Source: Arthrobacter sp. OVS8 | GTDB taxonomy: Bacteria > Actinomycetota > Actinomycetes > Actinomycetales > Micrococcaceae | Assembly (NCBI GenBank): GCA_028370155.1 | Contig: CP116670.1 | Location: 3,658,001-3,722,000, forward strand | Direction of reading: 5' to 3' | DNA length: 64,000 nucleotides | In this document: positions 9,517 through 53,023 of the stretch, piece after piece | How positions within the stretch are numbered: position 1 is the first letter of the stretch | How the letters are laid out: each line of letters opens with the position of its first letter | Program-made: the position numbers and the translations under genes | Notes under the pieces: model-generated | Told to the model about the DNA's origin: nothing | Seen by the model: the letters and a program-made list of their open reading frames with translations, nothing else | Database searches by the model: none

Positions 9517-10509
9517 GCGGACACCCCTACTTTCTCCGGGGCGGACCTTGTCGGGGCCTGCGTTTCCGGGGCTGCCGCCGCGGCGTGGCCGGTGAGCCGG
9601 AGGAACACGTCGTCCAGGGTGGGGCGGCGCAGGGAGGCCTCGTCCACCGGCAGGGCGCGGGCGTCCAGTTCGGACAGGACCCGGACCAGCAGCCGGTGGC
9701 CTTCGGGGGCGGCGATGGAGACGCGCAGGTTCTGCGGGTCCTGTTCGGCCCGGGAACCCGGACCGGAGGCCCGCTCCAGCACGCCCGCGGCCGCGGTGAG
9801 GTCTGCGGCGTCGCGCATTACGACGTCGATCCGTTCCGTTCCGGCGCTTTGCTTCAGTTCCGCGGCGGTCCCCTCGGCGATGACGCGGCCGTGGTTGATG
9901 ACCGCGATGTGGTCCGCCAGCCGGTCGGCTTCCTCGAGGTACTGAGTTGTCAGGAGGACGGTGGTGCCGTCCGCTACGAGGCTGGACACCACGTCCCAGG
10001 TATCCAGCCGGCCGCGGGGTCGAGGCCGGTGGTGGGCTCGTCCAGGACGACAACCTTGGGCCGGGCCACGATGGCCCCGGCAAGGTCCAGCCGCCGGCGC
10101 ATGCCTCCGGAAAAGGTGCCGGAGCGTTTGCCGCCACGTCGGTGAGCCGGAAGCTTTCGAGCAGCTCGTTTGCCCGTGCCGCGGCGCTCCGGCGGTTCAT
10201 GCCGTACAGCCGGCCCACCATGTGCAGGTTTTCGAAGGCGGTGAGTTTCTCGTCCACGGCGGCGTACTGCCCGGACAGGCCCAGGTTCCGCCGCACCAGG
10301 TCAGGATCGGCCAGGACGGAGTGGCCGGCGATCCGGGCGTCACCGCTGTCCGGGGACAACAGGGTGGTGAGCACCTTCACGGTGGTGGTTTTGCCGGAAC
10401 CGTTTGGTCCCAGCAGGCCCAGGACGGTTCCTTCGCCCGCGTGCAGGGAGAGCCCGTCCAGGGCCTTGAAGCTGCCGAAACTCTTGCTGACGTCCTCGAC
10501 CCGGATCAC
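9513..10509 (-). CDS. ABC exporter ATP-binding protein (DrrA-like)
   Basis: Daunorubicin-resistance type ATPase, about 330 aa. Walker A is [14 protein letters not shown] near residue 35. The Q-loop is in [15 protein letters not shown], the signature is [12 protein letters not shown] (in a shifted frame), Walker B is [12 protein letters not shown] and the switch region is [16 protein letters not shown]. The C-terminal DrrA extension ([15 protein letters not shown]) is present. At least two one-base breaks lie between 10140 and 10000. It starts at ATG 10509, overlapping the mbtH stop, and feeds directly into the permease gene. It is the likely energy source for exporting the cluster's peptide product. 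Confidence 0.9.
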
Positions 10510-10718
10510 TGCGAGGCGGCGAGTTCGGCGACCTTGCGCGGAGCCATATCCGTCCAGGTCCGGGACACGTAGTCGAGGCAGGCTTCGCGGGTGTCCGGGC
10601 CGAACATGGTCACCCAGCCCTGCGGCACGGCCGCGAAGGCGGGCCAGAGGGAGTGCTGCTGGTACTCATTCACGAGTACGGAGAACGTTGCGGACTTGTC
10701 ATCGAATGGATTCGTCAC
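10506..10718 (-). CDS. mbtH: MbtH-like protein
   Basis: 70-aa accessory protein that binds adenylation domains and supports their folding and activity. The GTG start at 10718 (reading MTNPFDDKSATFSVLVNEY) sits 6 bases after AGGAAAGG; a longer reading from further upstream is unlikely. The family signature is clear: NEYQQHSLWP, VPQGW and the closing TWTDMAPRKVAEL with three conserved tryptophans. It lies 63 bases after the synthetase gene and overlaps the ABC ATPase by four bases. Intact. Confidence 0.97.
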   Translation of the reverse strand: MTNPFDDKSATFSVLVNEYQQHSLWPAFAAVPQGWVTMFGPDTREACLDYVSRTWTDMAPRKVAELAASQ

Positions 10719-10781
10719 GTTGACCTTTCCTGTCGGTTCTGGCGTTCGGAAAGCCCTCTTGTGCATCAGGGGCATCACTGG

Positions 10782-13700
10782 TTATTCGTCTCCGCCGCCC
10801 AGTTGGATGGCCAGCGCGGGCATAATTGCGCTGAGAGCCCGGTCACTGAGCAGCTGGGAGTGCCGCTCCGCCACGGGAACGTCGGTGATGGTTCCGGTGA
10901 TGAACGGCTGCCACGCATCGCTGCCCGGGGTACCGGCAGGCACCTCCCGGGTGGCCCGGAAGAACAGCAGCCCGCCGTCGAACACCTGCGGCCGCTCGTC
11001 GCGGATCAGCCGGGCCAGCGTGGGAAGTTCCCCACCATGGCGTTGACGGAGTCCAGCGGAACGGTGCCCAGCGGGTTGTGGTGTTCCCGCAGGATTTCCT
11101 GCGCGCGCTTCCCGTCCAGTCCGGCCATGTCCTCGTCCGGCAGTTCGTAGCCCTGGGCGTCGAGGTAGCTGGCCCACAGCCCGGGGCCGGTCCCGACGTC
11201 GGCGTTGTCCTCCTGGTTGCCGGGGAAGGCATCGAGGATGGCCAGGAACGCCACGTCCTCGCCCAGTTCCTGCAACCGGGTGGCCAGCCGGTGGACCAGG
11301 TGGCCGCCGAAGGACCAGCCCATGAGGTGGTACGGGCCCTCGGGCTGCACGGAGCGGAGCTGGGCGATGTAGTCGTCCGCCAGTTCGGTCAGCGTCGGGG
11401 CTTCGACCGGGTGGGTCCGGCCCGGTTCCATTCCGGGCATCTGCAACCCGATGAGTGGCCGTTCCGGATCCAACTTGCCCAGCATGGAGGCGTAGCCCCA
11501 GCTGATGCCGGAGGCCGGGTGCACGGCGAAGAGCGGGAGCTTGGTCCCCGTGGTCCGCAGCGGCAGGAGCTGGCGCAGGCTGTCCGCGGCGCTTTCGGCG
11601 GCGCCCTTGGCGGCCTCGCGGAGCAGACCCTCGACGGTGGGCGCCCGGAACAGCGACTGGACCGTCAGATCCGTGCCCAGCGCCGCGTTGACCTGGGCGA
11701 TCAGCGGCCGGGCCAGGAACGAGTGGCCGCCGAGTTCGAAGAACGATTCGTCGACGCCGGCACGGTCCAGGGACAGCACCCCGGCGAAAATCCCCGCGAC
11801 GGTCTTTTCCCGCGGGGTCCGCGGACCCGCCCGGCGCGGCGGTCCGTGCTGCCGGGATCCGGCAGCGCCCCCGCGTCCACCTTGCCGTGCGGGGTCAGTG
11901 GCACCTCCGGGATCACGACGACGGCGGCCGGCACCATGTAGTCCGGCAGCAGCCCGCGGACGTGGTTCCGGACAGCGTCGGACAGGATGCTGTGGTCGAT
12001 GTCGATGTCGATGTCGATGTCGATGTCGATGTCGCGGTCGGGGCCGGATCCGGGTTCGGACCGGTCCTGCGTGCCCTGGCTGCTGCCGCCGGCACGATGT
12101 AGCCAATCAGACGTATCCCGCCGTCGTTCCCGCCGGTGTCCCCAATAGAGCGGACGACGGCGGCGCTGACGCCGGGGGCGCTGCGGAGGGCCTGCTCCAC
12201 CTCGCCGGGTTCCACCCGGAAGCCGCGGATCTTCAGCTGGTCATCGTTGCGCCCCGCAAAGACGAGCCGCCGTCAGCGTGCCGGTGTACCACATCGCCGG
12301 TGCGGTACATCCGTTCGCCGCCGCCCTCGAACGGATCCGCGATGAAGCGTTCGGCCGTCAGTTCGGGCCGGCCGCGGTAGCCGCGGGCCAGCTGGCGGCC
12401 GGCGATGTAGAGTTCGCCGGCCGCGCCGGGCAGGGTGTGCTGCAGCCTGTCGTCCAGGACATAGAGGCGCGTGCCGGCGGTGGACCTGCCCAGCACCGGT
12501 TCGCCGGTGTCGACGCGGGCCAGGACGGTGTCCACGGTGGCCTCGGTGGGCCCGTAGAGGTTCCAGGCCTGGACGCCGGCGTGCGCCGCGACCGTGTCCC
12601 AGAGCCCGGCGTCGAACGCTTCCCGCCGAGGGCCAGGCTGAAGCGTCCGGCCCGGCCGCCGGTGGCGTGCGTATCGAGCAGCCGGGTGAACTCCGGCTCG
12701 GTCAGGAGCTGCCGCAGGTAGCCGGGGTGGTTTCCCAGGCGCTGATGCGGTGCTTCGAGAAGTAGGCGGCGAGTTGCTGGGAGTCGCGGCGGGTCTCATC
12801 GCCGATCAGGTGCAGCTCGTGGCCGTCCACCATCCAGAGGATCGGGTCCCAGGAGGCGTCGAAGCCGATGCCCGTCGTGTGGGCGACCCGCCGGAGTCCG
12901 GCGCCGGCCAGCAGCGTGTCGCGGTGCGAGCCGAGGAGCGCCGCCAGGGCGCCATGGCTGACATCGACGCCCTTCGGCCGGCCGGTGGAGCCGGAGGTGA
13001 ACATAACGTAGGCCAGCTCGTGCGGGTCCGGCGCGGTGAAGGCTGCCAGGCCGGCCGCCGCGTCCCCTTCCGCTTCCGTGGCTGCGCCGGGGCCTCCTCC
13101 GGGCCTGCGTTCTGGACCGCGTTCTGGACTGCGTCCTTCGCTGCCGCGAGGTCTTCCAGCACCAGCACGCGGGGCCGTTCAGCCAGCCCCGCGAGGAGCT
13201 GTTCCACGCGGGCTGACACGATACGGCTGGTAAGGATCACCGGCGGGCCGGCGTCCGCAATGATGGCTGACGCCCGCTCGTCCGGGTATTCGGTGTCGAT
13301 CGGGTTGTAGACCGCGCCCGCGGCGAGCACGCCGAACATGCTCTCAACTGTTCCCCGTGAACGGGGCAGCAGCACGGAAACCACATCGCCGCGGCTGACT
13401 CCCGCCGCCGCCAAGGCGGCGGCAATCCTCGACGCCGAGGCGGCAAGACCCGCAAAGCTCAGGGTCCCGTCCTCTGCGACCAGTGCGGCGGCATCCGGCG
13501 TCGCCCTGACCGTAGCGGCGAGAGCCGCCAGGATGCCGGGTTCCGCGTCGGAGGCTGCTGTGCCGGCTGCGGGGTCCGAGCGGGTTCCGGCGGTGGCCGC
13601 CATCAGCGTGATGGCCTCCTGGTTCCCGAGCATCGGGAGCAGGGAAACCGGGGTGTCCGGGGACGCGGCGGCCAGTTCGAGGAACCGGCTGAAGCTGTCC

Positions 13701-16700
13701 GCCAGGCGCCTTGCGGTTGCCGCCTCAAACATCGCCGAGTTGTAGTCGACCGTGCCGGTGAGTCCGCTTTCGCTGCCGCTGTTGCTGTCACTGTCGGGCC
13801 GGAAGGTGAAGGAGAGGTCGAACTTGGCTTCGCCCGACGCCGTCTCCGGCTCTGGTCCCACCCGAACGCCGGGCAGTTGCGGGACCGCCGGAGCCTCATT
13901 GTCCACGGTGAGCATGGTCTGGAACAGCGGGTGGCGGCCCAGCTCACGGTCCGGATTCACGGCCTCGACGAGCCGTTCGAAGGGCACGTCGTCGTGGTCG
14001 AAGGCCGCCAGGATGCTCTCCCGTGACCGGCCGAGCATGGTCCGCAGACTGGGGTCGCCCGCGGCGTCGACCCGTAGAGGCAGGGTATTGACGAAGAAGC
14101 CGACCAGGTCGCGCAGCGCAGGATCCGTCCGTCCGGCCGTGGGGGAACCGATCACCAGGTCCTCGCCGGCGCCGCTGCGGTGCAGGAAAGCGGCCAGCGC
14201 GGCGTGGAGCGCCATGAAGAGGCTCGCGTTCGACGCCGACGCCAGCCCGTTGAGCGCCGTGACGCTGGCGGCGTCCAGCCGGAAAGTCAGCTGCCCGCCG
14301 GGCTGGTGTGATTCGCGGGGCGGCGGTGGTCCGCCGGCAGCATGATTTCGGCCGGGATGCCGGAGAGGGCGCTGCGCCAGTGGTCCAGCTTGGCGGTGAG
14401 CGCCGTCCCGTCGAGCTGCTGCCGCTGCCAGTTGGCGTAGTCTGCGTACTGCAGGGGCAGCGGTGCCGGGCCGGCGGCCGGGCCTTGGCCAAGGGCGGCC
14501 TCGTAGGCGGCAGACAGGTCCCGGGCGAGCGGGGCCAGGGACGCGCCGTCGCTCGCGATGTGGTGCATCACGAGGTGCAGGACCCACTCCGGTTCGTCCG
14601 CCGAGTCGACCGGGATGAGCCTCGCCCGCAGCGGAAGCTCGGCGCGGACATCGAAGCCGCGTTCGGCGTCGTCCCGCAGCAGGCCGGGCACCTCGGCCCG
14701 GGTCGCGGCGGCACTGATGGTGAGGCGCATGCCGGCACCGTGGGCGGCGTCGGACGGGTCCAGGACCACTTGCTCCGGGACCCCGCCGGTCTCCGGGTAG
14801 ATAGTCCGGAGGACTTCGTGGCGCCGGAACAGGGCGCCGACGGCGGCAGCCAGCGCCTGCTCGTCGAGCGCCCCGGTGAGGCTCACCGCCAGGGAGATGT
14901 TGTAGTCGGCCGAGCCCGGGTCCAGCTGGTTGAGGAACCACATCCGGGACTGGGCATAGGAGAGAGCCGGACGGTCCGGCCGGAGAGAATCCGCGCCGGC
15001 CAGCCAGTCCGTGAGCGCGACCGGTTCCGCGGCAGGATCCGGCTGCCCGGTCTCCTGCCCGCTGTCCAACTCGGTGTCCGTCCCGGACCCGGGGGCCGCG
15101 ACAGGCCCGGCGGAACCCTCGTGGCGGGTCTGCCGGTGGACTGCGGCCAGCAGCCCGGCCGGCGTGGGCGCATCAAAGAGCATGCGCAGCGGCAGTTCGG
15201 TGCCGAAGGCTTCGCGGATGCCGCCCATCATGGCGACCGCGAGCAGGGAATGCCCGCCCAGGACAAAGAAGTCATCGCCCATTGAGACCTCGGTGACACC
15301 GAGGACGTCGGCGAAAATCCCGCACATGGTGTGTTCGTCCCCGGTCGCCGGGGCCGCACCGGTGCCTGCGCCGGCACCGGCGGACGGCGCCGGAAGGGCC
15401 TTTCGGTCCAGTTTGCCGTGCGGGGTCAGGGGGATGGCGGGCAGGTGCATAAAGACGGCCGGGACCATGTAGTCGGGCAGTTTGCCGGCGGCCAGGGCGC
15501 GCAGGTCCTCGGACCCGGCGGTGCCGGTGTAGTAGGCCACCACGCGATGGGCCGGTTCGCCGTCGGCTACGGCCACGGCGCGGTCAACCTGCGGGTGGGA
15601 GGACAGCGCGGCCTCGATCTCGCCGAGTTCGATCCGGAAACCGCGGACCTTGACCTGCTCGTCCGTGCGGGAGAGGAACTCGAGTGAGCCGTCCGGCGTC
15701 CGGCGGACCAGGTCGCCGGTGCGGTACATCCGGCTGCCGTCGGCGGCGAAGGGGTTGGCCACGAAACGGGAGGCGGTCTCGGCGGGGCGCCGGTCGTAGC
15801 CGCGCGCCATTCCTGGACCGGCCAGGTACAGCTCGCCCGGGACGCCGGCCGGCACCAGGGCCAGGTACTGGTCCAGGACGAAGGTGTCCGTATTGGCGAT
15901 GCCGCGGCCGATGGCCGGCGCGCCGCCGCTGATCTCCGCGGTCACCGAGTCCACGGTGAACTCGGTGGGGCCGTAGAAGTTGTGGGCCGAGACCTCCGGT
16001 GCCGAGGCCAGCTGTGTCCACAGCCCGGGGTCACTGCCTCGCCGCCGAGGGCCAGCAGCAGGGCTGTTCCCGTGGGGGCTCGAGCAGGCCGCTCTGCAGC
16101 AGCTGGCCGGCGTAGGACGGCGTCGTTTCCAGCACGTCGATGCCGTGGCTGCGGCAGTAGCCGGCGAGCGACTCGGCGTCGCCGCGGACGTCGTCGGCCA
16201 CGATATGGAGCTCCGCGCCGGCGGTCAGCCACAGCATCGGGTCCCAGGCGGCGTCGAAGCCGAGGCCGGCGATGTGCGCCACGGAGACGGTGCCGTCCGC
16301 ACCGGCGGCCTCGAAGCGCGGCGCGTACAGGGTGCGGTGGTGGTGGCGGTACAGGTTGGCGAGGGCGCCGTGCGGGACGGCCACCCCTTGGGGCGGCCGG
16401 TGGAACCGGAGGTGTAGAGCACGTAGGCCAGGTCACCGGCGGCCGGGCGGCGCTGTGCCAGGGCGGCGTCGGAAATGCCGGCACCTGCTGCCAGCAGTGT
16501 GTCGACGTCCAGCGTCCGCGGACCCTCGGGGCCGTGGTCGCTGCATGCCGGTGCGCCGGAGATGAGGACGGCGGGAGCGCCGTCCTCGAGGATGATCCGG
16601 ATCCGCTCCTCCGGGTAGGAAAGGTCCACCGGGATGTAAACCGCGCGCGCGGCCAGCACGGCCAGTGCGGCAGCGACGACGTCGGCCGTGCGCGGCAGGG

Positions 16701-19700
16701 CCACGGCCACCCGGTCGCCGGGCTCCACTCCGGCGGCCAGCAGTCCCTTGGCGAGGGCCTGGACCCGGCCGTGGAGCTGGCCGAAGCTGGCGCCGGCTTC
16801 CTCCCGGCGGCGTCGACGAGCGCCAACGTGTCCGGGGTGCGTGCCACCGTGGCCCGGAAGGCGTCGACGACGGTTTCGGGCGCCTCCGCGCCCGGTGCGG
16901 AGTCTCCGGTCCGAAGGCTCTGCTCCAACGCGAGCCGGTGCTGCTCCGGGGACTGGATCCGGAGCCGGTCCAGAGTGATTCCGGGATCCGCGGCGAACTG
17001 CTCCGCCACGGCCAGGAAGCCGCCACGAGCTGCTCGGCGGTGGCCCGGGTGAACAGGGCAGGGTTGTAGGCAAGCGATCCGCGGATACCCTCGCCGGCGT
17101 CATCTTCAGCAAGGTCCAGCAGCAGGTCGAACTTGGCCCCGCCCGGTTCCTGGCTGAGGTCCGCAGTGGCTTCGAGACCGTCCATGGCGAGCCCGGCAAC
17201 TGCCGTGTTCTGCAGTGTGAGCATGACCTGGAAGAGCGGATGGCGGTGCTGGGACCGGGCCGGATTGAGCTCCTCAACCACGCGCTCGAAAGGCGCGTCC
17301 TGGTTGGCGTAGGCATGCAGGTTGGTGTACCTGACGCTCTCCACGAGCTCCGCCGCGGTGGGGTTTCCGGACGTGTTGGTCCGCAGCACCAGGGTGTTGA
17401 CGAAGAAGCCCACCAATTCGTTGAGCTGGGTGTCCGTGCGGCCGGCCACCGGCGTGCCCAGCGGGATGTCCTCGCCCGCGCCGGACTTGGTGAGCAGGGC
17501 CGCGAGTGCGGCCTGCAGCACCATAAAGAGGCTGGCGTTGTGTTCCCGTGCCAGCGCGTTGAGCCTGGCGCTGGTTTCCGGACGGATGGTGAGGTGAAGG
17601 GACGACGCCGGTTCGGCGGCGCCCTGCGCGCCCCGGCTGAAGTCGAACGGCAGCCGCAGTTCCTCGGGGGCGCCGCGCAGTTCGCGGTTCCAGAACTCGA
17701 GCTGGCGGGAGATGGCGCTCGCGGGATCGTCCTCGCTGCCCAGTTCGTCGCGCTGCCACAGCGTGTAGTCGGCGTACTGCACGGGAAGCGGCACCAGCGG
17801 GGTGTCCGCGCCGGCCGCCAGGGCGTTGTAGGCGAGTGAGAGATCCTGCGCGAGCGGGGCCAGCGACCAGCCGTCAGCGGCAATATGGTGCAGTGTTATG
17901 GCCAGCACGTGGTGGTCGGGGGCCAGCTGGAACAGGACGGCGCGCAACGGCAGTTCCCGCGTGACATCGAAGCCTCGCCGGGTTTCAGCCGCGAGGGCGC
18001 CGGCCAGCCCGTCGGCGGTGCACTGGACAGCCAGCAGCTCCACCGGGCGCTCGGCCAAGATCTGCTGGACGGGTTCGCCGTCGAGCAGCGGGAAGAGGGT
18101 CCGCAGGGATTCGTGGCGGCCCGCCACCTGGGTGATCGCGCCCCGAACCGCCGCGACGTCCAGACTGCCCTTGAGCGCCAGCACCACGGGGATATTGTAG
18201 GCGCCGGATCCGGGGTCGAAGCGGTTCAGGAACCAGAGCCTGCGCTGGGCGAAGGAGAGCGGAATGACGTCCGGGCGTTCCACCGGTTGGAGCGGGTTCG
18301 CGTTGCCGGCTCCAAGTTCAAGCGTCTCCGCGAGGGCGGCCACGGTGGCCTGTTCAAACACGGTCCGCAGGGCGGGCGCGGCGCCGGTGCGGTCCCGCAG
18401 TATGGCGACCAGCCGGGTGGCCAGCAGGGAGTGCCCGCCGAGTTCGAAGAAGTCGTCGTCAAGTCCCACGGCGTCGAGCCCCAGGACTTCCTGGAAGGCC
18501 TCGGCCACGATCCGTTCCCGTTCGTTGCGGGGCGCGGTGACGGCGGTTTCCGTCTCCGGCGCGGGGAGCGCGCGTGTCCAGCTTGCCGTTGGCGGTCAGG
18601 GGGATGGCCGGGATTTGCTGCACGGCGGCGGGCACCATGTAGTCCGGGAGCTGCCGGCGGGCCAGCTGGCGCAGTTCGGCGGTGTCCAGTTTCGCAGTGT
18701 CCTGTTCGGCGGTGTCCAGCCCGGCGCCGTCGGGCACGGCGGCGGTGACGTAGCCGAGCAGCTGGTCGTAGCCGCCCGGTTCTTCGTCACGGCGACAGCG
18801 GCGTGTTCCACGCCGTCGAGGCCGCGGAGGACCTCTTCGATCTCGGCGAGTTCGATCCGGAAGCCCCGGATCTTGACCTGGGCGTCCATGCGCCCGCGGA
18901 ACTCGAGGGTCCCGTCCGGAAGGCGCCTGACGACGTCGCCCGTGCGGTACATGCGGGAGCCGTCGGGGACGAACGGGTCGGCGACGAACCGTTCGGCGCT
19001 GAGCCCGGGCTGGTCAAGGTAGCCGCGGGCCAAGTTGATGCCGGCGACGTAGAGCTCGCCGATGGCGTTGACGGGGACGGGGTTCAGGCCGGAGTCCAGG
19101 ATGTAGTGCCTGCTGTTGGTCACGGAGTCGCCCAGGGTGGGTTCGGTGCCGGGCTGCATCACGGCGGTGAGGGAATCGACCGTTGTCTCGGTGGGGCCGT
19201 AGAAGTTGTAGGCCACCAGACCGTCCTTCTCCGCGAGGGCGCTCCACAGCGGAGGATCCACGGCCTCGCCGCCCAGGGCCACCACCGACGGGTGGCTGTC
19301 CTGGTCGAACAGGCCGCCGGCGAGGAGCACCTTGGCGAAGGACGGGGTGGTTTCGATCGAGTCGATGCCCGTGCGGGCCAGGTAGCTGCTGAGCGCTTCC
19401 GGGTCGCGGCGGGTCTGGTTGTCCACGAGGTGGAGTTCATGGCCGGCGATGAGCCAGAGGATCGGGTCCCAGGAGGCGTCGAAGGAGAGGCCGGCGGTGT
19501 GCGCGACCCGGAGCTTCCGGCCGAGCCGCTCCTCCGCGGGCAGGAAGATGCTGTCCCGGTGCGAGGTGTAGAGGTTCAGCAGGGCGAGGTGCTCGACGCC
19601 GACGCCTTTGGGCCGGCCGGTGGAGCCGGACGTGAAGATGACGTACGCCAGATCCTGCTGCCCGGCCGGGCACTCCAGCGCGGACCCGTCCTTGCCTTCG

Positions 19701-21546
19701 AGGCAGGACACCATCAGGGCGGCATCCAGCACGGTGACGGGGACGTCCGTGGCGAGTTCGGCATGCCCGGAATCCCCGCCGGTGAACGCGGCGGACGTCA
19801 GCAGGCGGACCGGGGCAGCGTCTTCGAGCATGCCCTCGACCCTGCCCGCGGGGTAGTCCGGGTCCAGCGGCAGGTACGCGGCACCGGATTTCAGGATCGC
19901 CAGGATCGCGACGGGCAGCAGGACGCTGCGGTCCAGCCGCACGGCAACGGTCAGCCCGGGGCCCGCCCCGTGGCCGCTGAGGAACCTGGCCAGCTGATTC
20001 GAGCGGGTTTCCAGCTCGCCGAAGGTGAGTTCGCCGTCGGGCGCGACGACGGCGGTCCGGGAACCGGACTCCCGGGCGCTGAGCCGGAATTCCTCCACGA
20101 GGGTGTGCCGGGGAGGGTCGTGTCGCCGGCGTCTCCGGCCGCCAGCAGGGAGCGTTCCTCGCCGGCGGTGGTCACTGACAGTGCGGCGATGCGGGACTGG
20201 GGCCGGGTGGCCACATCGGCGAGGAGCCGGACGAACCGGTCCAGGTGCTCCTCCAGCTGCGTGGTGCTGTAGAGGGCGGCGTTGGCTTCGAACTGGATTC
20301 TGGGTCCAGGTTCTGGGAGCGCCTGTCCTGTGCCGTCGGCGTCGCCGGTTGCGGCGGATCCGGCGTCGAGGCCGTGGACGATGATCGAGAGGTCGTCGAT
20401 GGGGCCGGTGGACAGGATGTTCATGGTGCCGCGGGCGGGGCCGAAGCTGATGTCGTCCAGGACGGGCAGGATGTTGACCGAGGGTCCCCGGTAGCCGCTG
20501 TGGGCATTGAGGTCCTCGAAACGGCCGCGCTGGTGGATCACGGCTCCGCGGAGGGTGTCACCCACGGCCGTGACGGTGTCGCGGACTGTTGTGCCGGGTT
20601 CGACGGCGACCCGGATCGGCACGATGTTGGAGAGCATCGACGGCGTGGATTTCGCCAGTTTGCCGCGGCGCGCGGTCACGGGCAGAGCCACGGAGACGTC
20701 GCGCTCGCCGGTGATCCGGTGCAGGTACAGGGCTGCCGTGGTGAGGATCAGCGCCGGCGCGGAGCCGGCGGCAGACCGGAGCGCGGCGGCGGCCGCGGCC
20801 GGCAGCTCTCTGGCGGCGCGGACCAGCGAACTGGCGGCGCCCGCTGGCCGGCCGGCAAGTCCCGCGGCGGCCGGGGCATCCCGCAACTGGGATTCCCAAT
20901 AGGCCCGGTCGGCGTCGGCGGCGCCCGACCCTGCATGGGCGTTCTCAGCGGCCAGGAGTTCGGCGAGGGAGCCGAAGTCCTGAGCGTTTCCGGGTGCAGT
21001 GCCCCCGGTGGCAGCTCCTCGGGGTTCCGCGCCGTCCAGCAGCTGCTGATACTGCTCCGCCACGCGCCGCAGCACCAGCACGGCGGAGTAGCCGTCCAGC
21101 ATCAGGTGGTGCACCCGCTGATAGAAGAAATGCCTGTCGTCGGCGAGCTTGATGAGTTCGGTGTGGAGGAGCTCGTCCGTGACGGCGTCGCGGGCGAGGC
21201 CCAGGTCCGAGTCCATCAGGACGCGGGCTTCGGCCTCCGGGTCCCGGGCGCCGCTCAGGTCCGTCACTTCCATGGTGGCCGGATTGGGCTTCGGGAGCTG
21301 GAAGGGGCCCGCATGGTCCTCCCCGAAGACCATGTTGAGCGCATCGGTCCCGGCCACGGCCCGCGCCACTGCGTCGGCCAGCACCGGCACGTCGAGCGGC
21401 CCCTGGATCTCGACGAACTGTCCGATCTGGTACATAGGATTCTCCGGCGCCAGCTGCTGCGCGTACCAGATGCCTCGCTGGGCGGGGCTCAGATCGAGCC
21501 GGCCGCCGGAGTTGTCGGGCTGGGCGTTCAGGGGATTCGGGGACAT
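10782..21546 (-). CDS. Trimodular nonribosomal peptide synthetase, C-A-PCP-C-A-PCP-C-A-PCP-TE
   Basis: About 3,590-aa synthetase starting at ATG 21546 ([15 protein letters not shown]) after GAGAAGGAAC. Module 1: EntF-like condensation domain (HHLMLDG near residue 146), adenylation ([34 protein letters not shown]), carrier ([11 protein letters not shown] near 18430). Module 2: condensation (HHIAADG near 17880), adenylation, carrier ([10 protein letters not shown] near 15260). Module 3: condensation (HHIASDG near 14560), adenylation, carrier ([11 protein letters not shown] near 11740). The thioesterase has GWSFGG near 11310. No epimerase, methyltransferase or cyclisation domain is seen. Read against GrsA, the three pockets are DADEVLFVDK, DADELLFVDK and DADELLLVDK, so the same residue is probably activated three times; the acidic positions 239 and 278 hint at a basic amino acid (weak inference). 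At least twelve one-base frameshifts, mostly G/C run losses (for example 16384-16387), interrupt the frame. Confidence 0.93.
11995..12034. repeat. Hexanucleotide tandem repeat inside the third adenylation domain
   Basis: Six exact copies of GTCGAT (11995-12030) plus a partial copy. On the coding (minus) strand in the frame that continues into the conserved [12 protein letters not shown] stretch, it encodes alternating Asp-Ile. It forms part of a hydrophilic insertion of about 30 residues between the A8 motif ([13 protein letters not shown]) and the A10 region. Such an array is prone to copy-number change. Confidence 0.85.
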
Positions 21547-21689
21547 GTTCCTTCTCGGGTATCTCGAGGGGCCGGTGGGCGTATTCGGGGCACTCCGCAG
21601 GGACCTGCGCCGAGGGCTCAGGCAAAGATCCCCCGGCAAGTCAGCCGGTGCGGCCGCTGTGCCGGGGGGATCAGGGAGTGCTGGGATGG

Positions 21690-21953
21690 TTACTGGAACT
21701 GCCCGAACTGGAAGGGCCCGGTCCCGCCGGTGGTGACGAGGGGGCCGTCCACCAGGGGGCCGTCGATGAGTCCGCCGTCGATCAGTGGTCCGAAGGTGAC
21801 CTGGTTGTTGGACGCCGGGTCGCTGGTCACCGCGGTGGTGTCTGGTGTGGTGGCGGCCTGCGCCGGCATCGAGGTCACGGCGAGGGCAGAGAATGCCAGT
21901 GCTGATCCAGCAGCGATCCGGGCGGCGTTCTTGAGGGTCTTAGTCACGTTCAT
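21690..21953 (-). CDS. Small secreted repeat protein of unknown function
   Basis: 87-aa precursor with a clear Sec signal peptide: charged start MNVTKTLKNAARIAAG, hydrophobic core SALAFSALAVTS and a probable cleavage after MPAQA. The mature part is about 54 residues. It is acidic, has no Cys, and contains a repeat built on LIDG/LVDG (PLIDGGLIDGPLVDGPLV) followed by a Gly/Phe/Gln tail ending FGQFQ. I recognise no family. It lies 143 bases upstream of the synthetase on the same strand and 89 bases after the P-type ATPase. Either ATG 21953 (leaderless, see promoter) or GTG 21947, which has GGAG six bases before it, could be the start. Confidence 0.75.
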   Translation of the reverse strand: MNVTKTLKNAARIAAGSALAFSALAVTSMPAQAATTPDTTAVTSDPASNNQVTFGPLIDGGLIDGPLVDGPLVTTGGTGPFQFGQFQ

Positions 21954-21960
21954 CTCCAGT

Positions 21961-21989
21961 TAGGTAGCCGTACAGTTTCCACACACCAA
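21961..21989 (-). promoter_or_regulatory. Putative promoter of the secreted repeat protein
   Basis: On the minus strand TTGGTG (21989-21984) and TACCTA (21966-21961) are 17 bases apart, matching sigma-70 -35/-10 geometry. Seven bases separate the -10 from ATG 21953, so the transcript may be leaderless. It may also drive the downstream synthetase. Inferred. Confidence 0.4.
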
Positions 21990-22042
21990 AAAGGTGTCAT
22001 GAACTATTCGGACCTGCGTGGAGACCGGATGGGTGGGTGCGG

Positions 22043-24802
22043 TCAGGCGGGGACCGGGGATGCGGGGACCGCGGCCGTGGCCTTCGGGCGCCGTGCCCGA
22101 AGGATCAGCTTGAACAGCTCGCCGAGGATCAGCAGCACAACAGCCGGAACCAGGCAGACCAGCCACTGCTCGCCGGTGAGCGGGACGGTGCCGAAAAGGT
22201 CCTGCAGCACCCGGATCTGGGTGATGAGCATCGAGCCGACGATGGCCCAGGCGAACGCCCAGAGCAGCTTCGGGTTGGACACCGTGGACGGCCCGAAGGC
22301 GCTTTCCTCGGGGAATCGCAGGTTGAGGGCGACCGTGATGTTCATCAGTCCCAGCCCCACAATGGCCATGCTCTGGCCGACGTCGAGCGAGTCGTAGCTC
22401 GTCTTGCCGATCTGCACGAGGACCAGCGTGGCGGCCGCCATGAACAGCCCCACGATGAACAGGCGCACCATCATGGACCGGACAATGATCGGCTGATTGA
22501 ACGGCCGGGGCTTGCGGTCCATGATGCCCGGCGTCGCGAGGTCCAGGCCCATCACCGCGCCGATGGGGGCGACGATTGCCATGTGGATCCACAGCACCTG
22601 GGCCGGGCTGAGCAGCGCCGTGCCGGCGATCGCGAACGCGGACGATCCGATGAACGCCAGGATGAACATAAACAGGTTGGCCACCTGGATCCGGATGAAC
22701 TTCTGCAGGTTGTCGTACACCAGCCGGCCCTGCTCCACCGCGGCCACGATTGTGGCGAAGTTGTCATCGGCGAGGATCATCTTGGCCGCTCCCTTGGCGA
22801 CATCCGTGCCGGTGATGCCCATCGCGATCCCGATGTCGGCCGCCGCGATGGCCGGTGCGTCGTTCACGCCGTCGCCCGTCATTGCGACGACGTTGCCTTT
22901 GCGCTTGAGCACCTCGACGAGCCTGACCTTGTGCTCGGGCGCCACCCGGGCGATCACGCCGATCCCGTCGATCTGGCTGTCGGCCTCGGCGTCGGTCATC
23001 GCCGCGAACTCGGCACCGGTGACCGCGCGGCCCCTGATGCCCAGCTCGTCGGCGATCGCGGCCGCCGTGATGGCGTGGTCGCCGGTGATCATCCGGACCC
23101 GGATGCCGGCGTGTTTCGCCTTGGCGATCGCGGTCACCGCTTCGGCGCGCGGCGGGTCCACCTCACCAATCAGCGCCGAAATCTCCAGGTCCTGCATCAG
23201 CGCCATCAGGTCGCCCGAGGGCTGGAACGTCGCGGGGTCGAACTCGCGCTGCGCCAGGGCGAGGACCCGCCGCCCTGGCTGGCGATGCGCTCGTTCGCGG
23301 CCAGCACTTTCGCCCGCATCTCCTCGGTAAGGGTCTCGGCGCGGCCGCCCGGCATTCGCGCGGACGTGGACCTGTTGAGGACGACGTCGGGGCCCCTTCA
23401 CGTAGGCCCGGATCACCGGCCGCCGTCGGCGCCCGGCATCCGGTGGAACGTGGCCATGAACTTGTAGTCGGAGTCAAAGGGTACGGACGCCACGCGCGGG
23501 TTGTTCCGGCGGAACTCCGTGACGTCCACGCCGCCCTTCTGCGCGAGGACGTACAGCGCCGCCTCGGTGGGGTCGCCGATGACTTCGCCGTCCTGGATGT
23601 CGGAGTCGTTGCACAGGGCGCACGGGAACATCACGTAGTCGAGGTCGCGTTCGGCGTCGCCGGTGGTCCGCTGGACCTGGCCGTTGAAGCTGTACCCCTC
23701 GCCGCTGACCGTGTAGTGGTGCTGTACCGTCACGATCTCCCGCACCGTCATCTGGTTCAGGGTCAGGGTGCCCGTTTTGTCCGAGTTGATGGCGGACGTG
23801 GAGCCCAGCGTCTCCACCGCCGGCAGGACCTTCATGATGGCGTTCTTTTTGGCCATGTTGACCGAACCGACGGACAGGATGGTCGTGACGACGGCCGGCA
23901 GCGCATCCGGGATGGAGCCCACCGCCAGCGCGACGCCGATCCCGAAGAGCACCGCGAAGGAGTCGCCCTGGGCCAGGCCCATCACCACAATCGCGACGAA
24001 CGCGAAGAGGGCCGCGATGATGATGAAGATGGTGAGCCGGTCCACCTGCTTCGTGAGGGGGTCTTTTCCTCTTTTTGTCCGGACAACATGTGGGCGATGT
24101 GGCCCACTTCCGACCCCATGCCCGTGGTGGTCACGAGGATCTCGCCGTGTCCCCGCGTCACGTTTGTATTCATGAACGCCATGTTCACGCGGTCCCCGAT
24201 GCCGACGTCGTGCCCGCCGATGGGCGCGGTGTCCTTTTCGACCGCGACGCTCTCCCCGGTCAGGGCCCCTCCTCGACCTGGAGCGTCGCGGCAAGGATGA
24301 TCCTGCCGTCGGCGGGGATGCGGTCACCGGCGTCGACCATCACGATATCGCCGGGGACGATCTGCTCGGCGGGGAGCTCCGCCATCACGCCGTCGCGGCG
24401 CACCTTGGCCATCGCCTTCATCATCTGCCCCAAGGAGGCGGCCGCTTCTTCGGCCTTGCCTTCCTGGTGATAGCCCAGCCATGCGTTGAACAGCGTCAGC
24501 AGGGCAAGCCCGATCGCCGTCCCGTATTCCGCGATCAACAGGCTGACCAGGGCGGCGACCACGAGCACGATCTGCATGTAGTCCCGGTAGTGCTTGAAGA
24601 ACCGTTTCCAGACCGGTTCCTGCTTCGCGGCCGCCAATGCGTTCGGGCCATATTCCTGCAGCCGCTGCTGCGCTTCGGCCGAGCTGAGGCCGACAGCCGG
24701 GTCCACCCTGAGTTCGGCCGCCACCTCCGCCGGCGCCAGTGCGTACCACGTCGCGTCCGCCTGGGTCGCGGCCACTCCTGCTGCTCCGGGACTGTCGTTC
24801 AT
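22043..24802 (-). CDS. P-type cation-transporting ATPase, PII-like with altered ion-site residues
   Basis: About 920-aa P-type pump: N-terminal cation-ATPase domain (GLSSAEAQQRLQEYGPNALA), actuator loop (VPGDIVMVDAGDRIPADG, LTGES), phosphorylation motif SDKTGTLT, nucleotide-binding domain and hinge GDGVNDAPAI. It resembles the SERCA/PacL group, but the usual calcium ligands are changed. M4 reads SIPDALPAVVTT where SERCA has PEGLP. M6 reads VLWIHMAIVAPIGAVMG, where Asn, Thr and Asp would be expected. The substrate is therefore open. Breaks occur near 24268, 24070 and 23280-23415. It starts at ATG 24802, 25 bases after PPK2, so the two form an operon. Confidence 0.9.
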
Positions 24803-24827: not shown

Positions 24828-25666
24828 TCAGAACGGGGTCGGGACGCGCCGCACCGCGAGGCTCGGCTCGCGGTAGTTGCCGGCCTTCTGGCGCTTCGGC
24901 AGTTCGACGTCGAGCCCCGGGTACGGCTCGTACGGCACCTGGCTCAACAGGTGGCTGATGATGTTGAGCCGGCCGCGTTTCTTCACGTCGTTGTTCGCGA
25001 CGAACCACGGCGCCCAAGCGGTGTCGGTCGCCGCAAACATGGCGTCCCTGGCCCGGGAGTAGTCGTACCAGCGCTTGTAGGACTTCAGATCCATCGGCGA
25101 AAGCTTCCACGTCTTGCGCGGATCGTCCATCCGGCTCTTGAGCCGCCGCGTCTGCTCGTCCGCGCTGACCTCAAGCCAGTACTTCAGCAGGATGATGCCG
25201 GAGTCGACCATGGCCTTCTCCACCAGCGGAGCCATGTTGAGGAACCTCTGGGTCTGCTCCGGGGTGCAGAAACCCATCACGCGCTCCACGCCCGCCCGGT
25301 TGTACCAGCTGCGGTCGAAGATGACCACTTCGCCGGCCGCCGGGAAGTGCGCCATATAGCGCTGGAGGTACATCTGGGACTTCTCCCGGTCGGTCGGTGT
25401 GGGGAGGGCCACCACCCTGAAGACCCGGGGCTGACGCGCTCGACGATGCGTTTGATCGTGCCGCCCTTGCCGGCCGTGTCGCGCCCCTCGAAAACGATGC
25501 AGATCTTGGCTCCGGTGGACTTCACCCACTCCTGCATGGCGACCAGCTCGCCTTGCAGGACAGCCATCTCCGCCTCATATTCCTTGCGCGGCATCTTGGT
25601 CCGGGGCTGCCCGTCCGGCTCCGTCGACTCGTTGGCGCTCTTCTTGCTGCTCTTCTTCTTGCCCAC
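24828..25666 (-). CDS. ppk2: Polyphosphate kinase 2 (PPK2 family)
   Basis: Interconverts polyphosphate and nucleoside di/triphosphates. About 280 aa. The Walker A-like motif FEGRDTAGKGGTIKRI and the lid/Walker B region VVIFDRSWYNRAGVERVMGF are diagnostic, as are SPMDLKSYKRWYDYSRARD and PWFVANNDVKKRGRLNII. The GTG start at 25666 (MGKKKSSKKSANESTE) has AGGAGG eight bases upstream and a Lys/Ser-rich tail before the catalytic domain. One break at GGGG 25427-25430: adding one base restores RVSPRVFRVVAL. It is directly upstream of the P-type ATPase; supply of ATP from polyphosphate near an ATP-driven pump is an inference. Confidence 0.93.
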
Positions 25667-25897
25667 GTTCGGCCTCCTAGTCGGGTACTTCCTAGGGCGA
25701 ATCAGGCAGCCGAACTGCGGCACCGACGGGACTGGCACTTCCCGCCCGTCGAAGGGGATGGAAGGGCGCAGGCACCGTTTCCGGGCGCTCTTGTGCAGCG
25801 TACTGCCTCTCCCAGTCTTGCCACCGGCCGCAGTGTGGTCTACGGCACTAAGACCCTATTGAGGTGCCGTTTCCCGGGTTGGTGTGGGCAAAGAGGG

Positions 25898-52941: not shown

Positions 52942-53023
52942 GGCAGATTACCCGAGCGGCCAAAGGGGGCTGACTGTAAATCAGCTGGCAACGCCTACGG
53001 GGGTTCGAATCCCTCATCTGCCA
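52942..53023 (+). tRNA. tRNA-Tyr (GTA)
   Basis: 82-base class II tRNA. Acceptor GGCAGAT (52942-52948) pairs with ATCTGCC (53016-53022), discriminator A. The anticodon stem GCTGA/TCAGC encloses loop CTGTAAA with anticodon GTA at 52976-52978. There is a long variable arm, and the T-loop reads GGTTCGAATCC. CCA is not encoded beyond the first C's. Followed by a terminator. Confidence 0.97.

Follow-up and report, generated by a model that had tools for sequence, protein, structure and literature searches.

A small peptide gene at the head of a three-module nonribosomal peptide synthetase operon in Micrococcaceae and related families, with a predicted SigK-type promoter

In the 64,000-nucleotide stretch of the Arthrobacter sp. 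OVS8 genome analysed here (the window), a very short reading frame stands in front of a gene for a nonribosomal peptide synthetase (NRPS). The locus raises the question of what so small a gene is doing there, for which the first-pass annotation had offered three answers: an unrelated cell-surface peptide, a leader gene with the promoter for the whole cluster, or a partner of the exported product. Biosynthetic clusters in Arthrobacter are few and mostly strain-unique, according to an excerpt of a published study (PMC3848822) in which this cluster is not mentioned.

The mini-gene and its operon

The reading frame called at 21690–21953 on the minus strand, 87 codons long, is real and conserved, but its start is likelier to be a GTG than the ATG that was called. 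To judge from homologues, translation probably begins at GTG 21947, two codons inside the ATG of the longer ORF, because that ATG is not kept (it reads ATA in L009, and in L015, L042, and L043 it is either missing or not in frame), whereas the start codon two codons later and its Shine-Dalgarno sequence are. Read by eye, the window protein has a positively charged n-region, a hydrophobic stretch, and an AxA cleavage site, which together form a Sec-type signal peptide with an AQA end, and a mature part of 54 residues with the repeats LIDG-GLIDGP-LVDGP-LV and no Cys. The synthetase ATG lies at 21546 on the same strand. Signal peptide, mature length, LIDG/LVDG repeats, lack of Cys, and co-directionality had all been described before and were seen again in the sequence. 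The parts of the mini-gene are as follows.

21690–21947, minus strand: mini-gene, 85 aa, GTG start; the ORF as first called reaches 21953
21855–21947, minus strand: part coding for the signal peptide, residues 1–31, ends AQA (by eye)
21693–21791, minus strand: conserved core, residues 53–85, GPLIDGGLIDGPLVDGPLVTTGGTGPFQFGQFQ (from a 40-sequence alignment and dN/dS)

The earlier remark that the protein matches nothing familiar was borne out. No Pfam or NCBIfam model reached its cut-off, the best being DUF2613 at 13.8 bits (cut-off 22.1) and Rpf at 14.1 bits (cut-off 180), both on the front part of the mini-protein, and the best PDB match (E 0.33) fell on the signal region. Among the literature matches listed (titles and abstract starts, most subscription journals lying outside the scope), none described the mini-protein. 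A stable fold was rejected, as AlphaFold2 gave no confident model of either the window protein (pLDDT 53.8, pTM 0.11) or a 33-aa form of the family (pLDDT 69.7, pTM 0.27).

The conserved operon order is mini-gene, three-module NRPS, MbtH, and DrrA/ABC-2 exporter, which in the window occupy the following positions.

10782–21546, minus strand: three-module NRPS, (C-A-T)x3-TE, identified from motifs; frame broken in the window
10506–10721 (end approximate), minus strand: MbtH-like protein; the G046 orthologue scores 93.5 bits with PF03621
8718–10509 (limits approximate), minus strand: DrrA-type ABC ATPase and ABC-2 permease; frames broken in the window

The G031 orthologues of the exporter score 343.8 bits with TIGR01188 (cut-off 312.45) and 108.7 bits with PF01061, module 1 of the G046 NRPS is recognised by Pfam and NCBIfam, and in most of the relatives retrieved at full length the NRPS is one open frame of ~3,430–3,650 aa. 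Behind the permease lies what is presumably a PPTase gene, judged from motifs by eye; Pfam gave nothing for its G031 copy. In the window, the NRPS, transporter, and P-type ATPase genes (10506–21546 and 22043–24802) each read in several frames, whereas relatives have them intact. Given that intactness and a genome completeness of 79.7%, the splits are probably assembly indel errors, and no conclusion about function is drawn from them. A polyphosphate kinase 2 gene lies at 24828–25738 of the window and at L036:12984–13817 (TIGR03707, 354 bits in G046); together with the P-type ATPase it is also found upstream in G046 and in L046, the record matching G465, and not in G031 or more distant relatives.

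A script read the A-domain pockets, in what we take to be PheA numbering, as DADE[ALVI]G[FLM]VD in every readable module, with one residue unread in L103; it returned fewer than three codes in 16 of the 33 proteins, where frames were broken, the ORF was the wrong one (L115), or the motifs varied. The near-identical pocket sequences suggest that all three modules take one and the same amino acid, probably a basic one. A DHB catecholate siderophore cluster of the enterobactin or myxochelin type was rejected: no DHB-AMP ligase exceeded the TIGR02275 cut-off (723.55) in any of 16 genomes (0/16), and only G380 (567.4) and G1023 (675.9) had matches above 500 bits.

Distribution of the family and anatomy of the peptide

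A first search of 99 genomes yielded ten with a convincing homologue of the mini-protein (E 4e-10 or better, the genome of the window counted), among them G014, whose copy is truncated by the end of its contig. A profile of ten sequences, A1, with 13 candidates scored per genome, found matches in 24 of 395 Micrococcaceae genomes. When the first 430 residues of the G046 NRPS were used as the query on a draw of the same kind, 32 of 395 genomes matched, and all 24 genomes with a profile match fell within these 32. The remaining eight carry a diverged mini-ORF upstream of the NRPS in every case (8/8), missed by the profile. The profile search alone underestimates the family, and reading the sequence upstream of the NRPS is the better method. 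At the level of the order, 22 of 396 genomes matched the NRPS query, 16 of them outside the family, and a mini-ORF was present in 15 of these 16 loci; the exception, G547, is a 184.7-bit match to a different NRPS, with an open frame of 7,716 codons and no mini-ORF.

Together with G052, G054, G059, and G023, which come from the 99-genome search and lie outside the 32, the 32 and the 15 make up a set of 51 genomes from the Micrococcaceae and four other families of the order; outside the set stand G014 (mini-gene cut, no NRPS visible), G547, G830, and G1023. A mini-ORF ending in GQFQ or GQFQQ is common to all 51 genomes with the NRPS. In 50 of the 51, mini-ORF and NRPS share a contig; in G114 the mini-gene and the NRPS N-terminus are on different contigs. 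An automatic distance between the two was absent for eight genomes, and in seven of these the linkage was read from the loci around the NRPS match. The 51 genomes share descent, so they do not represent 51 independent cases.

The first-pass annotation had asked whether homologues always flank peptide clusters, and had held that a lack of conservation among relatives would speak against the gene. Homologues are present in all 51 NRPS genomes, and in each the GQFQ(Q) mini-ORF heads the NRPS operon, while the genes farther upstream, read by eye, vary by lineage (a P-type ATPase, a PucR-type regulator, a sugar transport operon, a metal transporter, and others). The proposal of an unrelated cell-surface peptide, there by chance, has nothing in its favour beyond the single locus, and the 51/51 association over five families, with differing genes farther upstream, makes it barely credible, and we reject it. 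A plasmid-borne family was likewise rejected, no match to the window protein appearing in PLSDB at E 0.01.

That the GQFQ tail is a general C-terminal tag was rejected. G000 has two GQFQ-stop sites, the second of them in a 10-codon frame, as is its copy in G046. Further sites, in a frame without a stop in G058 and in frames of 34 and 118 codons in G083, show little likeness to secreted genes of this kind, though the 34-codon frame, ending KFGQFQ, may be one. G362 and G477 lack a GQFQ-stop match because both end in GQFQQ. In G830 and G1023, class-level relatives from other families, the order of the operon is unchanged, but the tiny ORF before the NRPS is a different one: a 66-aa signal-peptide protein ending GNYQINH in G830 (L196) and a 20-aa ORF, MNFIQSIVTLFLTIGDINIF, ending GDINIF in G1023 (L197), neither with a GQFQ tail. 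The GQFQ family alone may understate how common small peptides in front of NRPS operons are. Besides the genome of the window, 29 outgroup loci were read (L167–L195). The 27 NRPS loci other than those of G830 and G1023 contained no GQFQ mini-ORF; the pattern match in L175 lies inside a frame of more than 400 codons.

Homologues range from ~33 to 107 aa, carry no fasciclin domain, and share only their last ~27–33 residues ([LI][IV]xGPL[IV]...GQFQ). Across 40 aligned sequences, G68, G82, Q83, F84, and Q85 alone are invariant and P69 and L70 reach at least 90%, so that the conserved residues sit in the final ~30 codons, next to the stop. The end reads GQFQ or in some cases GQFQQ, the spacing between GPL and tail is variable, and the core units are multiplied in places (extra GPL units in G465; PFQFGQ doubled in G058 and G459). 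Most forms combine a signal peptide with a Ser/Thr/Pro/Ala-rich linker. By our own reading of the fronts, 38 of the 51 homologues are signal-peptide-like, 7 have an uncleaved membrane segment, and 6 have neither, giving an exportable front in 45 of 51; the start of G473 was set to MLSL by comparison with G083, the automatic start lying too far upstream. The six forms without an export signal (33 aa in G617, G571, G680, and G558; 49 aa in G380 and G215) count against an exported partner. Among 20 Micrococcaceae sequences, dN/dS was 0.41 for the signal, 0.52 for the linker, and 0.23 for the core, figures that serve as a comparison between segments and not as precise values, because synonymous differences are high. 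Given this stronger selection on the core than on signal and linker, and the homologues in many genomes, the mini-ORF is more than a chance frame.

Promoter, SigK, and RNA features

A credible promoter had been reported upstream of the mini-gene. An element is indeed present, but it is not sigma-70-like: a scan of 21400–22200 returned neither sigma-70 sites nor T-tailed terminators (0 and 0), and a sigma-70 promoter before the mini-gene was rejected on that scan. The element is instead of the SigK type, a name based on what we take to be the M. tuberculosis SigK consensus letters. It and the two stem-loops that flank the mini-gene lie as follows.

22007–22032, minus strand: SigK-type (ECF) promoter; -35 CCATCC at 22027–22032, N14, -10 TCCGAA(T) at 22007–22012
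21983–21997, minus strand: small stem-loop ACACC-TTTTT-GGTGT near the predicted transcript 5' end, read in the sequence
21627–21672, minus strand: strong stem-loop in the gap from the mini-gene stop to the NRPS start; no T run

The homologues read first share CCATCC-N14-TCCGAA, with the -10 element ~60 nt before the start. The strict form derived from the window is found in 30 of the 51 clusters, and a relaxed form, a regular expression admitting variants learned from the data, in 50 of 51 (absent from G415), with a spacing of 14, or of 15 in five; none of 295 equally long control windows taken from these loci (0/295) contained the relaxed form. It was found in 2 of the 29 outgroup loci, L168 and L174 (loose). 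In G1023 (L168), a loose site (CCGTCC, N15, CCGAAC) lies between the 20-aa ORF and the NRPS, and no SigK-type site was seen before the NRPS of G830. The P-type ATPase gene ends ~11 bp upstream, and read-through from there may contribute to transcription.

In the genome of the window, the exact promoter pattern occurs at three sites: before the mini-gene, inside another gene, and upstream of an ECF sigma factor. By itself the motif lacks specificity: with at most one mismatch allowed there are 30 sites, compared with 10 for the reversed pattern. Of 15 sites that were fetched, 8 lie inside called genes, and two more, besides the three sites discussed, precede a gene within 350 bp. The same 26-base motif match recurs at G000:C1:5145–5170 and 4143273–4143298, near both contig ends, perhaps because of an end overlap or an assembly duplication.

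The genome of the window encodes a sigma factor, P0002, that scores 269.9 bits with NF007228 (SigK; cut-off 226), and this sigK is preceded by the exact promoter element. The rskA copy is split over two frames; its orthologue in G046 has both RskA_C and RskA_N. A one-mismatch SigK-type site precedes an MPT70-like fasciclin gene (L057, G000:C1, ~160.7 kb), whose product scores 100.2 bits with PF02469 and matches MPT70 in the PDB (1nyo) with E 2.1e-63. Across 23 genomes, scanned up to 1.5 kb upstream of the best sigK match, 13 have the motif within 300 bp, 6 have it at a distance of about 1 kb, and 4 have none in that range; seven weaker second sigK matches lack it. Within the genus, 120 of 121 genomes have SigK, and the cluster thus draws on a regulator that is already resident. 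The text of PMC7509140, as excerpted, has SigK controlling mpt70/mpt83 and describes SigK sites as highly conserved in Actinobacteria. The literature searched, with most subscription journals outside its scope, held no match that brought SigK, MPT70, and a nonribosomal peptide together.

The small stem-loop directly after the -10 element keeps its pairing with changed bases in some relatives (GCGCC/GGCGC in G058; longer in G059), is weak when compared with mononucleotide shuffles (mean z -1.09, 30 of 50 below -1), and may be a protector of the mRNA 5' end or an operator. Behind the mini-gene stop, the best 60-nt stretch in the window reaches -33.7 kcal/mol (z -2.8). A stem-loop with z < -2 against 30 dinucleotide shuffles each is present at this place in 27 of 50 clusters, G114 being omitted, and 23 of 50 miss that value, including members of the families f11 (5/5) and f6 (4/6) and of the genera g33 (2/2) and g41 (4/5). 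These hairpins have unrelated sequences and mostly lack a T run; we infer that they may act as partial terminators or 3' end protectors that leave more mini-gene than NRPS message. A known RNA element was rejected, the Rfam threshold being reached in the window only by a tRNA at 52942–53023.

A predicted SigK-driven operon and its relation to known systems

Promoter and gene order, read from sequence, place the mini-gene as the predicted first gene of a SigK-controlled NRPS operon, with a probability of roughly 0.85 for this part. The biochemical role that we infer for its product, that of an extracytoplasmic, dedicated partner of the NRPS product, has about an even chance of being right. In this proposal, the anti-sigma factor RskA would release SigK, and transcription would begin at the mini-gene; where the post-stop stem-loop is present, mini-gene message would accumulate above NRPS message. 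The mini-peptide would be produced in quantity and, in most lineages, placed outside the membrane, while the NRPS would make a small peptide to be exported by the DrrAB-type pump. Outside, the xGPL[IV] units and the GQFQ tail could act with the NRPS peptide, for example as a carrier or as a co-aggregating or target-binding partner. A partner is favoured because of the export signals and Ser/Thr/Pro/Ala-rich linkers of most forms, the duplication of core units, and the exporter in the operon. A broader claim, that the NRPS always comes with its own ribosomal peptide (a ~27-residue core with GQFQ), mostly extracellular and co-induced by SigK, and that the active agent is the pair of this peptide and the nonribosomal one, is tentative and falls somewhat short of even odds.

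The main rival is a leader peptide that acts on the ribosome in the manner of SecM or TnaC: the ~27 C-terminal residues, about one exit tunnel in length, would slow the ribosome near the stop and control read-through into, or translation of, the NRPS, with the front part secondary. This reading is kept alive by the six unexported forms, by a conserved stretch that is C-terminal and lies beside the stop codon, and by the 20-aa ORF before the more distant G1023 operon, and the hairpin that follows the mini-gene in 27 of 50 clusters also fits it. We nevertheless consider it rather unlikely, as the tail stands at no constant distance from GPL and can take one more residue (GQFQQ), G058 and G465 have duplicated core units, most forms spend a signal peptide and a linker on their front, and in f11, f6, g33, and g41 most or all clusters lack a hairpin below z -2. 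Under either reading, the earlier suggestion of a promoter-bearing leader gene has the position right, with a SigK-type promoter in 50 of 51 clusters, and would require transcription to run on into the NRPS; a strong hairpin stands between the genes in 27 of 50.

Two further readings take up the tail and the pairing. The mini-peptide could itself be a ribosomally made precursor that the NRPS, or some other enzyme encoded in the operon, uses as a substrate or building block, as its constant pairing with the NRPS would allow and as the 33-aa cytoplasmic forms, which could meet the NRPS, might suggest; most forms, however, are routed outward before an NRPS could act, and neither inspection by eye of the operon genes looked at nor Pfam on seven proteins revealed a RiPP-type enzyme, so that we regard this as improbable. 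More improbable still is that the exported GQFQ C-terminus feeds back on SigK through a PDZ-type protease of the RskA/Rip1 cascade that would recognise it, by analogy with the DegS/PDZ logic. The invariant carboxy-terminal tail, its export in most lineages, and SigK's own control would suit such a signal, but some tails end in GQFQQ, unexported forms exist, and SigK does not need the mini-gene, being present in 120 of 121 genomes of the genus when the mini-gene is found in few.

The family exemplifies small proteins that similarity searches easily miss, with 8 of 32 members escaping a ten-sequence profile and position plus tail revealing the diverged ones, and the mini-gene can serve as a marker for this NRPS family. 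An uncharacterised NRPS family is tied to a named sigma factor, which predicts how to switch the NRPS on; as SigK is near universal in the genus, inducing it is a direct way to seek both the peptide and the nonribosomal product. If the favoured reading of a dedicated partner is true, the pair of peptide and NRPS product would be a new kind of assembly-line system, and SigK would gain a concrete biosynthetic output.

Among known systems, the locus resembles the SigK regulon of M. tuberculosis and other Actinobacteria (mpt70/mpt83 and sigK-rskA) in its promoter element, its resident SigK/RskA, and the MPT70-like gene in the same genome, and in having a small, usually exported product (PMC7509140, as excerpted). 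It differs in that the mini-protein has no fasciclin domain, measures ~33–107 aa, and leads an NRPS operon.

SecM, MifM, VemP, and TnaC are secretion-monitor or sensory leader peptides. The mini-gene shares with them a short ORF, often with a signal or membrane segment, a conserved C-terminus before the stop, the first place in an operon, and a downstream hairpin, here in about half of the clusters. Unlike theirs, its repeats vary in number and spacing, and we know of no arrest motif that occurs in the mini-protein.

MbtH-like proteins, too, are small, constant partners encoded with an NRPS, but the operon has a separate MbtH gene and the mini-protein has no MbtH match. On the side of the synthetase, module 1 of the G046 NRPS scores 541.1 and 484.6 with the models of MxcG (myxochelin) and EntF (enterobactin), respectively, far below their cut-offs of 2300 and 2400, and the partner NRPS consists of three modules with near-identical pockets; for comparison, the dudomycin synthetase is described in an excerpt of PMC7696016 as a one-module lysine NRPS.
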